NCBI GenBank assembly: GCA_016841675.1
Contig: JAENYQ010000003.1
Coordinates: 1-64,000 of the forward strand
Source: Desulfotomaculum sp.
Lineage (GTDB): Bacteria > Bacillota > Desulfotomaculia > Desulfotomaculales > Desulfallaceae
Reading direction: 5' to 3'
DNA: 64,000 bases
In this document: piece after piece, positions 15,826-30,074 of the stretch
How the letters are laid out: every line of letters begins with the position of its first letter
Position numbering within the stretch: the first letter of the stretch is position 1
Translations under genes and position numbers: made by a program
Notes under the pieces: generated by a model
What the model saw: only the letters and a program-made list of their open reading frames with translations
The model's database searches: none
Told to the model about the DNA's origin: nothing

Positions 15826-16486
15826 GTTGGTTGGTGGTGGAATGGGAGATAAAGTTCTGCGGCGTATTCGGCATTTGGTACCAGCCGCGCTGGGACATAT
15901 AGTTATAAATTTCATATGACATTTCAATGCAGTTGCGGGACATGTTGGTCAGTGCATTACGCAGGTGCGGTTCGGCACTTTCCAGGGCGGCCGTGGTATT
16001 GGTTTCGGCACTGTGTTTGTGAAACATCAGCGCACCTTCGGCGATAGCCCGGTCGTTTAGCATGGTGGTACCGGTGGTCGTTCCGGTTTGCATGGCCGAC
16101 TGTTGGCTAGTTCCTGTACCTGCGCTATACTGAGTGCCGTACTGCATGCCTGCCTGTCCGGTGAATGCCTGCTGCTGCTCGGCCCCGTACTGTGGTGCAG
16201 ACCACTGGTTGCCGTATTGAACCGTTCCCGTTGTAACCTGTTGGTTGCCCATGGTTGTGTTTATGGTAGTGGGGAGAGGCATCTGGTTGGTATCAATACC
16301 GTGACTTTGGGCCATCTGCAGTAATCTCTGGAAAGTGTCTATGGTATGTCTCTGCTGGCGGTCTAGAATGCTGCGCAATTGTTGATCCTGGCAGCTGTTC
16401 AAGTAAAGGTTATAATGGTCAATGATGCTTGAATTAGTTCTAAGTACTTCACTGATTTCCATTGCTTCCCGAGTTCCAAGTTTCAT
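15806..16486 (-). CDS. CotF-like spore coat protein
   Basis: 226 residues. The N-terminal half resembles the CotF coat domain: MKLGTREAMEISEVLRTNSS, then a helix with DQQLRSILDRQQRHTIDTFQ. The middle is a low-complexity Gln/Gly/Thr segment (about 85-135). The C-terminal part, LNDRAIAEGALMFHKHSAET through EMSYEIYNYMSQRGWYQMP, is the conserved coat-protein end. The start is ATG at 16486 behind GGGAGG (seven-base spacing); the longer frame to 16573 has no ribosome site. Expected in the mother cell or outer spore layers; no sigma-E/K promoter was resolved. Confidence 0.8.
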   Translation of the reverse strand: MKLGTREAMEISEVLRTNSSIIDHYNLYLNSCQDQQLRSILDRQQRHTIDTFQRLLQMAQSHGIDTNQMPLPTTINTTMGNQQVTTGTVQYGNQWSAPQYGAEQQQAFTGQAGMQYGTQYSAGTGTSQQSAMQTGTTTGTTMLNDRAIAEGALMFHKHSAETNTTAALESAEPHLRNALTNMSRNCIEMSYEIYNYMSQRGWYQMPNTPQNFISHSTTNQQQYPTQ

Positions 16487-17344: not shown

Positions 17345-19172
17345 TCTTTTTGCCGCCTCCTTCCGGTTGTGCCGAGGATTCTCCGTAACCGCGATCCCCG
17401 GGCGGCAGTTCGGTGATGGTGACCGGCTCGTACTTCAGCTCGGGCAGGTCGGCTCCCTCCGGCCAGTAAGCCAGAGTACGTTTTAGCCAGTTGGCATCGT
17501 CCCGTTTGGGGTAATCCTCCCGGGCATGGCTGCCGCGGCTTTCGGTGCGCGTCAGCGCGCCGTAGGAGATGCACAGAGCCAGTCGAATCATCCCGGGCAG
17601 GCGCAGAGCCTGGGCCAGCTCAGGACTGGGCCCTTCGCCGCCGGATTTCAGACCGATATTTAGGGAGCGGTGGTATACTTCCCGCAGGTTGTCGACTGCT
17701 TTCTGTAAATCCGGGCCATTGCGGAAGATACCCACGTAATCCATCAGGCTTTTTTCCATCTCGTTGCGCAAATTATAAACGTCTTCCTTACCGTTCCAGC
17801 CGTTGACCAGCGCCTTGACACGGTTTTCCTGTTCCTTGACGGCGTTATTAACCTGCTCGTAGCTGTACGACAGGGTGGCGCCCAGGGTGTATTCGGTTAC
17901 TTTTTTACCAATAATCCGGCCGGCCGTGATTGTTTCCGCCAGGGAGTTGCCTCCCAGGCGGTTGAACCCGTGCAGATCCCAGCAGGCTGCTTCGCCGCAG
18001 GCAAACAGGCCTTTTAATCCGTAAGCATAGCCGTCTTTGTTGGTACGCACACCGCCCATACTGTAGTGCTGGGTGGGTCGTACCGGGATTAAATCTTTCA
18101 CCGGGTCAACGCCGGCGAAGTTTTTGGCAATGTTGGCAATTTCGCGCAGGTTGGTGTTGATATGTTTGGCTCCCAGGTGCCGGATATCCAGCCACAGGTG
18201 TGGGCCGTAAGGGCTGTCAACACCGTAACCTTTACGGATATGCTGGGTCATGCGGCGGGATACAACGTCCCGGGAGGCCAGCTCTTTTTTCTTGGGTTCA
18301 TAGTCGGGCATAAACCGGTACAGGTTTTTATCTAAAAGATAGCCACCGTCACCCCGGGCACCCTCGGTAATCAGGATCCATACCGGCACCATACCGGTGG
18401 GGTGAAACTGAACCGCTTCCATGTTCCCCAGAGGAACCACGCCGGTGTTTAGGGCTACGAACATACCGTTGCCTTCGTTAATTACGGCATTGGTGGAGGC
18501 GCTGTACAGCCGTCCATAACCGCCGGTGCACATGACGGTGGACTTGGCGATATAAACCCGTAGGTCGCCTGTGCGCAGACAGCGGGCCACCACGCCGATG
18601 CATTTGTCGCCGTCGTGGATCAGGGAGATGGCCTCAGTGCGGTCGTGCACCGTGATGCCCATCTGGACGACCATGCTGTCCATGGTATATTGCAGGGTAT
18701 GTCCCGTGCCGTCAGCGGTGTAACAGGTGCGCCATTTGGCGGTGCCGCCGAAGTCCCGGGCGGTAATCAAGCCCTCTTTCTCTTTCTTTTCTTCTATTTC
18801 TCGCCCGTCGGGCAGGGTTCTTTTGCCTGCCACAACGCGGCTCCAGGGCACGCCCCAAACCGCCATTTCCCGTACGGCCAGGGGGGCGTTTTCCACAAAC
18901 GCCCGGGCTACATCTTGTTCACATCCCCAGTCCGAGCCCTTAACGGTATCGGCAAAGTGGACGTCCGTGCTGTCACCTTCGCCCATGGCACAGTTGCCAA
19001 GGGAAGCCTGCATGCCGCCCTGGGCAGCGGTACTGTGGGAACGTCGTGGCGGTACCAAGCTTAGAATAATTACGTTTAGCCCCTGGGAAGCGGCTTCAAC
19101 AGCGATCCTCTCTCCGGCCAGGCCTGCGCCTACTATTAACATGTCAGTAATGTGTGTTTGGTAATTACTCAT
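17337..19172 (-). CDS. sdhA: Succinate dehydrogenase/fumarate reductase flavoprotein subunit
   Basis: Catalytic subunit (611 aa) interconverting succinate and fumarate on the cytoplasmic membrane face. FAD-binding MLIVGAGLAGERIAVEAASQ; the covalent flavin His is H46 in RRSHSTAAQGG. Active-site segments include QFHPTGMVPVW, RPTQHYSMGGVRTN and TRTESRGSHAREDYP. The ATG directly follows the sdhC stop (TAAATG), with GGAGGAGGTG upstream. The direction in vivo (succinate oxidation or fumarate reduction) cannot be decided from sequence. Confidence 0.95.
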   Translation of the reverse strand: MSNYQTHITDMLIVGAGLAGERIAVEAASQGLNVIILSLVPPRRSHSTAAQGGMQASLGNCAMGEGDSTDVHFADTVKGSDWGCEQDVARAFVENAPLAVREMAVWGVPWSRVVAGKRTLPDGREIEEKKEKEGLITARDFGGTAKWRTCYTADGTGHTLQYTMDSMVVQMGITVHDRTEAISLIHDGDKCIGVVARCLRTGDLRVYIAKSTVMCTGGYGRLYSASTNAVINEGNGMFVALNTGVVPLGNMEAVQFHPTGMVPVWILITEGARGDGGYLLDKNLYRFMPDYEPKKKELASRDVVSRRMTQHIRKGYGVDSPYGPHLWLDIRHLGAKHINTNLREIANIAKNFAGVDPVKDLIPVRPTQHYSMGGVRTNKDGYAYGLKGLFACGEAACWDLHGFNRLGGNSLAETITAGRIIGKKVTEYTLGATLSYSYEQVNNAVKEQENRVKALVNGWNGKEDVYNLRNEMEKSLMDYVGIFRNGPDLQKAVDNLREVYHRSLNIGLKSGGEGPSPELAQALRLPGMIRLALCISYGALTRTESRGSHAREDYPKRDDANWLKRTLAYWPEGADLPELKYEPVTITELPPGDRGYGESSAQPEGGGKKNG

Positions 19173-21095: not shown

Positions 21096-21248
21096 GGGTG
21101 TCGGAGTTAAGTATTTTGGGTAAAAAACAGGTAAGTGGACAAGCTTCTCATTTTCGCCAGCTGTTTGTTTTGGCGGGGCATGCGTGGTGCGAAGTTTACA
21201 GAGCGACTTTTTTGTGTCCTCGGTCTGAGTGATTAGTAATTCATCTTT

Positions 21249-21306
21249 GGTGTTAGTTGTTGCAATTCTGAAACTCTTAAATTTCAAAATTGCAACAACT
21301 AACACC
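21249..21306. repeat. Perfect 19-bp inverted repeat between spoVT and the structured RNA
   Basis: GGTGTTAGTTGTTGCAATT (21249-21267) and its exact complement (21288-21306) enclose 20 bases that contain a further GAAA/TTTC pair. No T-run follows. It ends 10 bp before the promoter-like TTGATC of the RNA unit. Confidence 0.75.
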
Positions 21307-21316
21307 ATGGTTTTAA

Positions 21317-21381
21317 TTGATCACCTATTTATCTTACCATAATATACCACGTGTGTTATCTCATTTAGCGGGCATTATAAT
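21317..21381 (+). promoter_or_regulatory. Promoter region of the structured RNA
   Basis: Two candidates: TTGATC (21317) with TAATAT (21340), 17-bp spacing; and a perfect TATAAT (21376-21381) with a poor -35. Either would start transcription shortly before the first helix at 21398. Confidence 0.5.
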
Positions 21382-21384
21382 AAC

Positions 21385-21849
21385 GCAAGGTTCGTAATGG
21401 CCGAGCCAAGAGCGCTGTAGGGTCGAAAGGCTCTGCAGTGGTCGGCCAAAGGTTAATACAGGGTCTCACAAGGCTCTGTATTAGCCGGCGGGCAGATCGG
21501 TAAGTGTTCTGGTAGGCTGTACTGCAGTCCAAACGATTGCAGTATGGTCACAAGGGATGCTTATCGGTCGAGCTAAGATTATTATGGGTGTCGAACAAAC
21601 TTAACATGGTTGCCGGTAATTTTATTGTTAAGTCATTGGGTTTGCAGCAGTCGAGAGATTGTTGCAGGCTCATAAGATATCCATAATAGTCGAGCAAAGA
21701 TCATTATGGGTGTCGTAATGGTCTATAGCAGCCGAAAGGTTGTTGTGGGCTACGTAGATACGCATAGTGGTTGTAGCGTAGGTCATTACGGGCTTGAAGT
21801 AAGCAACGAAATCCTCTTTTCCTAAAGGAAAAGGGGATTTCGTTTTTAA
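21385..21849 (+). ncRNA. Large multi-hairpin structured RNA of unknown class (about 450 nt)
   Basis: No open frame of note, yet nearly every base can be placed in local helices. In order: TGGCCGA/TCGGCCA (21398/21442) enclosing CTGTAG/CTGCAG; GGTTAATACAG/CTGTATTAGCC (21451/21476); GATCGGTAAG/CTTATCGGTC (21495/21560) enclosing TACTGCA/TGCAGTA; ACTTAACA/TGTTAAGT (21599/21626); TGCAGCA/TGTTGCA (21643/21660); CCATAAT/ATTATGG (21681/21703); CGTAATG/CATTACG (21714/21784) enclosing CTATAGCAG/TTGTTGTGG and TACGC/GCGTA. Loops recur as AGTCGAGnnAGAT, and GTCGAGC...TATGGGTGTCG (27 nt) is present twice (21567, 21689) with two differences. A promoter lies upstream and an intrinsic terminator on the plus strand closes the unit. 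I cannot assign it to OLE, GOLLD, HEARO, 6S or any riboswitch I know. Confidence 0.75.
21805..21849 (+). terminator. Intrinsic terminator of the structured RNA
   Basis: AACGAAATCC-t-CTTTTCC / GGAAAAG-g-GGATTTCGTT, 17 pairs with one central T-G, a TAAA loop, followed by TTT. T-run only on the plus strand, which fixes the RNA strand. Confidence 0.88.
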
Positions 21850-21853
21850 AAAC

Positions 21854-21927
21854 GGGGTCAGGCTCTTAACTTATTAACTTATTGGCGAAATAACGCCAAT
21901 AAGTTAATAAGTTAAGAGCCTGACCCC
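21854..21927. repeat. GGGGTCAGG-type palindrome, copy 1
   Basis: Perfect 34-bp arms starting GGGGTCAGGCTCTTAACTTA and a six-base loop. The outer 29 bp of each arm are identical to those of the palindrome at 30080-30150; only the loop-proximal bases differ. It sits between the RNA terminator and the 3' end of the GerMN gene. Confidence 0.88.
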
Positions 21928-29504: not shown

Positions 29505-30074
29505 TTGAAACAGCATTCATTGCAACACCTGTATGAACGAATACGCCGGTGCAGTTGTGATTGCCCGGGTGAGCGGCAGGGTGCCGGTACGGTAAGAGAT
29601 ACCGGCAGTCCGGAAATTGGGGTGGTGCTGCTGGGGGAAGCACCCGGCGGGGAGGAAATTAAGCGTGGTGCCCCCTTTGTGGGGCAGGCCGGGGTTAATC
29701 TGGACGATTATCTGCAGTTGGCCGGTCTGACACGTTCCGACATTTTTATTACTAACACGGTAAAGTGCCGTCCCACTAAAAACAACGGGCGGGCCAACCG
29801 TCGGCCTGTTAGTTGTGAAATAAAATCCTGCGCCCGGTGGTTGGACGAGGAATTGGAAATTATTTTGCCACGCGTTATCATCACCCTTGGGGACGTGGCG
29901 TTGAAAAGGTTAGGTGGGCAGACCAAGCGCATAGGCGAATGCCATGGTGAGCCGCTGATGTTAAACGGAATTACGGTCATACCTATGTACCACCCCGCGG
30001 CTGTCATTTACCGCCGCCAACTGGAACCAATCATCGCCGCCGATTTCACCAACCTAAAAAAATGGCTAACCTAA
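29505..30074 (+). CDS. Family 4 uracil-DNA glycosylase
   Basis: Removes uracil from DNA. 189 residues with motif GEAPGGEE (family 4 motif 1), GAPFVGQAGVNLDDYL and motif 2 HPAAVIY. Four cysteines expected to hold a [4Fe-4S] cluster: two in RRCSCDCPG near the N-terminus and two in SCEIKSCARW. The TTG start at 29505 lies behind GTGAGG; it is separated by 27 bp from glgP and may be cotranscribed, though functionally unrelated. A palindromic repeat follows the stop codon directly. Confidence 0.88.
   Translation: MKQHSLQHLYERIRRCSCDCPGERQGAGTVRDTGSPEIGVVLLGEAPGGEEIKRGAPFVGQAGVNLDDYLQLAGLTRSDIFITNTVKCRPTKNNGRANRRPVSCEIKSCARWLDEELEIILPRVIITLGDVALKRLGGQTKRIGECHGEPLMLNGITVIPMYHPAAVIYRRQLEPIIAADFTNLKKWLT

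Follow-up and report, generated by a model that had tools for sequence, protein, structure and literature searches.

A large five-armed RNA with a forespore-type promoter, apparently a new structured class, in spore-forming Bacillota

The window analysed here, a stretch of 64,000 nucleotides from Desulfotomaculum sp. (contig JAENYQ010000003.1, positions 1 to 64,000), contains a gene whose identity as spoVT was confirmed by Pfam and, downstream of it at 21386-21850 on the plus strand, a region encoding a stand-alone structured RNA composed of a closing stem and five arms with helices of about 15 bp. Downstream of the RNA, and convergent to it, is a gene for a GerMN ('Germane') lipoprotein. A first-pass annotation had described this region as a non-coding array of hairpins between a promoter-like TATAAT and a same-strand intrinsic terminator, and all of the elements that it named were found at the positions it gave. 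The terminator was borne out as a hairpin with 19-bp, 95% complementary arms followed by a T-run. The lack of coding capacity was likewise supported: no open reading frame is common to most of 109 homologous copies, and a protein-coding explanation was rejected on this ground. The features of the locus are as follows.

21351..21357, plus strand: -35 element of the forespore-type promoter, GTGTGTT, weak in the window copy (consensus nnATAAT); position weight matrix (PWM) from RNA promoters
21370..21379, plus strand: -10 element GGGCATTATA (family consensus GGCCATAATA) after a 12-nt spacer; layout as in SASP promoters of the same order
21386..21850, plus strand: predicted transcript of ~465 nt, from the inferred start to the terminator; promoter and terminator positions conserved in homologues
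21388..21795, plus strand: conserved RNA core, closed by P1; 58-copy alignment A1 and 109-copy alignment
21388-21402 / 21781-21795, plus strand: closing stem P1, 15 bp; 58- and 109-copy alignments
21389..21391, plus strand: wobble sandwich 1, P1 (21389·21794, 21391·21792); G·U in 94% and U·G in 98% of 109 copies
21410..21443, plus strand: arm A, 15-bp hairpin; 97.0% of cells paired, double changes in 11 of 15 pairs
21421..21432, plus strand: wobble sandwich 2, arm A (21421·21432, 21423·21430); 99% and 95% of 109 copies
21446..21491, plus strand: arm B, 2 + 15-bp hairpin; two alignment helices, weak homology to arm C (E 3e-5)
21462..21475, plus strand: wobble sandwich 3, arm B (21462·21475, 21464·21473); 97% and 97% of 109 copies
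21495..21569, plus strand: arm C, two-tier (16 bp, 4x4 internal loop, upper hairpin); two alignment helices
21516..21548, plus strand: wobble sandwich 4, arm C (21516·21548, 21518·21546); 99% and 96% of 109 copies
21572..21695, plus strand: arm D, two-tier, with a length-variable 5' insert and a C-GAGA-G tetraloop (21653-21656); two alignment helices
21639..21670, plus strand: wobble sandwich 5, arm D (21639·21670, 21641·21668); 99% and 98% of 109 copies
21699..21772, plus strand: arm E, two-tier, with a GUAA/NGNA internal loop and a C-GAAA-G tetraloop (21734-21737); two alignment helices
21720..21751, plus strand: wobble sandwich 6, arm E (21720·21751, 21722·21749); 99% and 99% of 109 copies
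21805..21848, plus strand: intrinsic terminator, hairpin 21805-21844 and then a T-run; a terminator follows nearly every homologue copy

Repeats were also seen on either side of the RNA gene. Between spoVT and the RNA promoter lies an inverted repeat with 26-bp arms, 96% complementary, and an 8-nt loop (21248-21307), and a perfect 34-bp palindrome, GGGGTCAGGCTCTTAACTTA..., lies directly downstream of the RNA (21854-21927). Within the genome, 80 occurrences of the 20-nt end of this palindrome were counted at up to two mismatches (control, 0); most of them form inverted pairs with a spacing of about 50 bp, and the palindrome belongs to a REP-like repeat family.

The minimum free energy of the interval was -241.8 kcal/mol, compared with -131.1 ± 6.9 in dinucleotide shuffles (z = -16.0). 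The conserved fold consists of 12 helix segments, which form P1 and the five arms, and its consensus in the 58 aligned copies comprises 143 pairs. In these copies, 98.1% of cells were paired versus 90.0 ± 0.2 in the shuffled controls, and pairing fell to 33-41% of cells when the partners were slid by 1-3 columns. Compensatory double changes, with at least one change on both sides, occurred in 94 of the 143 pairs (53.4 ± 3.6 shuffled) and in 731 cells (179 ± 14 shuffled), every main helix contributing. Covariation, by which structured non-coding RNAs are judged in general and which the first-pass annotation had set as a test beforehand, therefore gives overwhelming support for the fold.

The same structure was recovered from the 109-copy alignment (mean identity 0.71). 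It consists of the 15-bp P1, the one-tier arms A and B and the two-tier arms C, D and E, with the tetraloops GAGA in arm D and GAAA in arm E. The enclosing helix CGTAATG/CATTACG, drawn earlier from the window sequence, is real and forms part of P1, and the GATCGGTAAG/CTTATCGGTC pairing is part of the lower helix of arm C. The description of AGTCGAGnnAGAT as a recurring loop held at 21650-21659, which is the C-GAGA-G hairpin loop, but not for the copies near 21568 and 21690, which belong to the multibranch junction and form no hairpin loop.

Repeated structural modules had also been suspected, and two results bear this out. A direct repeat of 59 nt, 75% identical with a spacing of 122, is present within the RNA, and covariance models built from single arms matched other arms. 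Model R1, built from arm E, matched arms C (9.6e-12) and D (3.9e-8), and model R2, built from arm C, matched arms E (1.2e-10), D (2.1e-6), B (3.2e-5) and A (9e-4). Since single-arm models recognize the other arms, arms C, D and E are homologous modules, and the fold probably evolved partly through duplication of a two-tier hairpin module. Two RNA copies (G008:C29:79129-79370 and G015:C24:3543-3842) lack the stretch equal to query positions 219-313 in blastn, which is consistent with the loss of one module or arm, as if by recombination between repeated GTCGAGCnAAGAT segments.

Most pairs of the fold interchange GC, AU and GU, and 109 of 145 pairs show two or more Watson-Crick types. At 18 pairs, by contrast, G·U or U·G is kept in 85% or more of the 109 copies, and 12 of these pairs combine into six G·U-N-U·G sandwiches, with each unit (P1, A, B, C, D and E) holding exactly one. 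Label shuffling over pairs gave 0.45 sandwiches on average and six in 0/100,000 trials, a sixfold statistic that partly reflects shared descent because the arms are homologous. Retention of the sandwich in all six units across such divergence indicates that it is under selection. Moreover, because G·U pairs become A·C mismatches on the opposite strand, the plus strand is the folding strand.

Homologues in relatives, which had been named as a further test, proved abundant. The genome of the window carries a second copy with 95% identity on contig C87, and blastn, run on 60 genomes of the same order, detected the RNA in 46, often at full length and with one to four matches each. Searches with the arm-E model R1 found it in at least 49 of the 60 order-level genomes and in at least 103 of 300 genomes across the phylum, both counts being lower bounds under the strict filters used. 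A degenerate-pattern scan of 84,980 species returned 65 stretches, all attributable by title or contig to Bacillota lineages (Desulfoscipio, Desulfotruncus, Desulfofundulus, Pelotomaculum, Sporotomaculum, Desulforadius, Carboxydocella, Moorella, Fervidicola, Tepidanaerobacter, Thermosediminibacterales and others), most of which matched the full-length profile. Two of the loci carrying the RNA are titled Actinobacteria and Deltaproteobacteria (L197 and L189); these are probably mislabelled MAG bins of order-level relatives such as G019 and G028. Two full tandem copies about 500 bp apart were seen at G014:C8:40683-41582 (L051; contig of L179, Sporotomaculum syntrophicum). Contig C93 of G000 (L093) has partial matches at 15916-15971 and 18135-18187, about 2.2 kb apart and each directly after a protein gene; they were rejected as full copies, as they contain the RNA 3' end and terminator only, and may be relics or recruited terminators, or may mark integration at the RNA 3' end.

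The promoter-like TATAAT of the first-pass annotation is present at 21376-21381, but what is conserved is the forespore-type -10 sequence GGGCATTATA at 21370-21379. Aligned upstream regions of the RNA copies gave nnATAAT-N12-GGCCATAATA, a layout that resembles sigma-F/sigma-G promoters. SASP genes are classical sigma-G targets, and as an internal standard a PWM made from the RNA promoters alone was run on the upstreams of 29 of them. Their median score was 11.2, compared with 2.6 for 246 control ORF upstreams (p = 4e-13). When each RNA copy was left out of its own PWM, the median was 15.3 and 55 of the 58 copies lay above the control 95th percentile; most of the distant copies, which come mainly from other families and lie outside the PWM set, also had a site of the same layout scoring >10 at the expected distance. 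A sigma-A promoter was rejected, since the best match near the start has 7-10 of the 12 consensus bases and the forespore matrix fits. The consensus sequences of sigma-F and sigma-G overlap, and the SASP and spoVT promoters of C. difficile are readable by both factors (PMC7438776); because of this overlap, we limit the claim to 'forespore type'. The RNA thus has, by sequence only, the sigma-F/sigma-G-type promoter of forespore-controlled non-coding RNAs of the CsfG and Bvs196 kind, and we infer with good support that it is transcribed in the forespore.

Because sigG was above the cut-off in 57 of the 60 order genomes, a contrast at the order level is uninformative, and spoIIR was therefore compared more widely. 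This gene is present in 245 of the 300 phylum-level genomes, in 99 of 103 RNA carriers versus 146 of 197 non-carriers (Fisher p = 4e-7 in a test that ignores phylogeny). The four carriers without a spoIIR match (G183, G224, G248 and G335, one of them only 61% complete) belong to families in which spoIIR is present in other member genomes. A genome of the window's genus (G003, 86% complete) has neither the RNA nor a sigG-level match. Many spore formers have no detectable copy, indicating that the RNA is not universally needed.

A constant gene neighbour was sought across the copies and none was found, several different contexts being present instead; a fixed neighbour as a clue to function or partner was therefore rejected. 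The recurrent positions are downstream of spoVT and convergent with ileS at the ileS/lspA locus, and other copies lie at a SASP locus or near spoIVA, a spoVB-like gene and thiC (the last three recognized by sequence). Some syntenic positions are common to different genera. At four loci (L084, L089, L178 and L208), the RNA is convergent to the gene recognized by sequence as spoIVA. The C87 copy of the window genome (29264-29719) lies just downstream of a SASP gene (29801-29983), both on the minus strand, and this arrangement also occurs in G002 (SASP, C6:34670-34852; RNA, C6:34915-35362). The spore role that the first-pass annotation had speculated on from the genes beside the RNA is thus backed by the forespore-type promoter and by the co-occurrence with spoIIR, whereas the adjacency to spoVT is one of several contexts.

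Varying neighbours, together with a promoter and a terminator of its own, indicate that the RNA gene is autonomous and trans-acting. These dispersed copies might otherwise be a mobile or repeat element, that is, a MITE or REP-like hairpin array without cellular function, as a genome can hold several copies, contig C93 has two relics of the 3' end and a true REP-like palindrome is found directly 3' of the RNA. Such repeats are dispersed and high-copy and are without a conserved promoter and terminator of their own, whereas copies of this RNA are few, occupy positions syntenic between genera, show strong compensatory covariation and have a conserved promoter and terminator nearly throughout. The RNA was also absent from the viral contigs, plasmids and phages searched. 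The mobile-element explanation is nearly refuted.

For the autonomous RNA gene, we consider it fairly probable that the RNA is a new class of the forespore (sigma-F/sigma-G) programme with six docking sites for one partner, working as an RNP scaffold or sponge. A transcript of ~465 nt would be made from its own forespore promoter and ended at its own terminator, and would fold into the closing stem and five arms with near-uniform helices of 15-16 bp, placing one G·U-N-U·G sandwich in each of its six helical units. Because the same near-invariant sandwich stands in each of the six units, six equivalent docking sites and action in trans are likely; the RNA would display these sites to one partner, probably a protein, and, within the developing spore, would serve as an RNP scaffold or a multivalent sponge. 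The docking of one partner at six sites is the weaker element of this proposal. SASPs were considered as the bound partner and not adopted, as alpha/beta SASPs are described as DNA binders.

The main rival to docking is an assembly of RNA only, in which no dedicated protein would take part. The sandwiches and GNRA tetraloops would pack helices within or between copies, giving a homo-oligomer of the ROOL, GOLLD or OLE type. Rather than a protein site, the invariant G·U pairs could be there for packing of RNA against RNA or for binding metal. Uniform helix lengths, the conserved GAGA and GAAA tetraloops and A-rich junctions fit such packing, and large ornate RNAs can form homo-oligomers by cryo-EM (PMC12286853). 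However, neither the sequence nor the length of the loops in arms A, B and C is constant, so that no conserved kissing loops stand out, and an intermolecular contact is beyond what sequence can show; we regard this assembly as unlikely.

Base pairing with mRNAs is a further alternative, in which the RNA would be a forespore sRNA antisense to targets such as SASP transcripts, as proposed for Bvs196. That RNA, of 294 nt and sigma-F/G controlled, binds mRNAs in vitro (PMC9147052) and shares the predicted cell compartment, and one copy of the present RNA lies just downstream of a SASP gene. Here, however, the conserved bases are almost all helical and the variable loops have no sequence conservation; conserved stretches outside the helices span just 2-4 nt, which could not hold a conserved seed. 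On this ground antisense regulation is the less likely rival, and we think it improbable.

Returning to six-site docking, we tentatively suggest a dedicated spore RNP, in which the forespore-made scaffold either collects six molecules of a single protein or assembles with itself, and then enters the dormant spore as packaged cargo. If so, this would be the first ornate RNA class tied by its promoter to a single differentiating cell type, and one found in several orders of anaerobic spore formers. Few large RNAs of unclear role are strongly conserved, and unusual biology has come from each of them. The present RNA looks like a new part of the spore-making machinery, and it offers a place of action that can be tested (the forespore), a distribution tied to spore formers, a precise consensus fold and, in the sixfold motif, a prediction of the bases read by a partner. 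A role of structured RNA in the forming or dormant spore is testable in the cultured Desulfoscipio geothermicus, Desulfotruncus, Carboxydocella and Moorella.

The first-pass annotation had placed the RNA in no known class and called for a comparison with Rfam. A scan of the window copy against Rfam 15 gave no match at the gathering score and none within 21385-21799, and at E up to 10 nothing convincing was found in the RNA core; the stronger matches of that search, microRNA precursor models on the neighbouring palindromes, were rejected as perfect-hairpin artefacts, and the rest were taken to be chance matches. Homologous loci from 16 other sources matched no Rfam family at the gathering score. 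Literature searches, largely confined to the main texts of open-access articles, found no such RNA in these organisms, and three large surveys of new bacterial RNA motifs make no mention of them in this connection in their main texts. A large structured RNA belonging to no known Rfam family is thus supported by the Rfam result, the abundant homologues and the covariation. We also asked how probable a diverged form of a described class is (OLE, GOLLD, ROOL, raiA, 6S, CsfG or a listed unnamed candidate motif). CsfG is a forespore RNA reported to be highly conserved in endospore formers, according to work cited in PMC9147052, but the Rfam and literature searches argue against such an assignment, which we take to be improbable. 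Because the RNA fails every family membership test made, we call it a new class of stand-alone structured RNA, a designation that appears secure at the RNA-class level, as judged by comparison of sequences. As broad kinds, forespore-controlled RNAs and large ornate RNAs have precedents, and in its complexity the RNA recalls OLE, GOLLD, ROOL and raiA.

Sponges of the CsrB/RsmY type have many identical protein-binding sites per RNA, in the form of GGA loops. The present RNA resembles them in its many repeated candidate sites, but its repeat is a wobble sandwich inside a helix and there is no relation. The raiA motif RNA (ModT) is likewise a structured RNA of Bacillota, and its disruption has been reported to give sporulation defects (reference in PMC12286853; C. 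difficile study PMC11706538), but its architecture is unrelated. GOLLD and ROOL are also large multi-helix RNAs and possible homo-oligomers; unlike the present RNA, they are encoded in phages and prophages (PMC12286853), and neither family was matched in Rfam. OLE, like this RNA, is large and highly conserved and comes from Bacillota that are anaerobic or extremophilic; it is known to act as an RNP scaffold, in the OLE RNP complex (PMC11332333), and is membrane-associated (PMC12265935). The present RNA differs from OLE in size and architecture, in matching no Rfam family, in adjoining no constant partner gene and in its forespore promoter. The predicted compartment, the forespore, is shared with CsfG and Bvs196/S547 of Bacillus, described as independent RNA genes under sigma-F/G (PMC9147052). 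Bvs196 is shorter, at 294 nt, and the present RNA is marked by its modular five-arm fold and its six wobble motifs.
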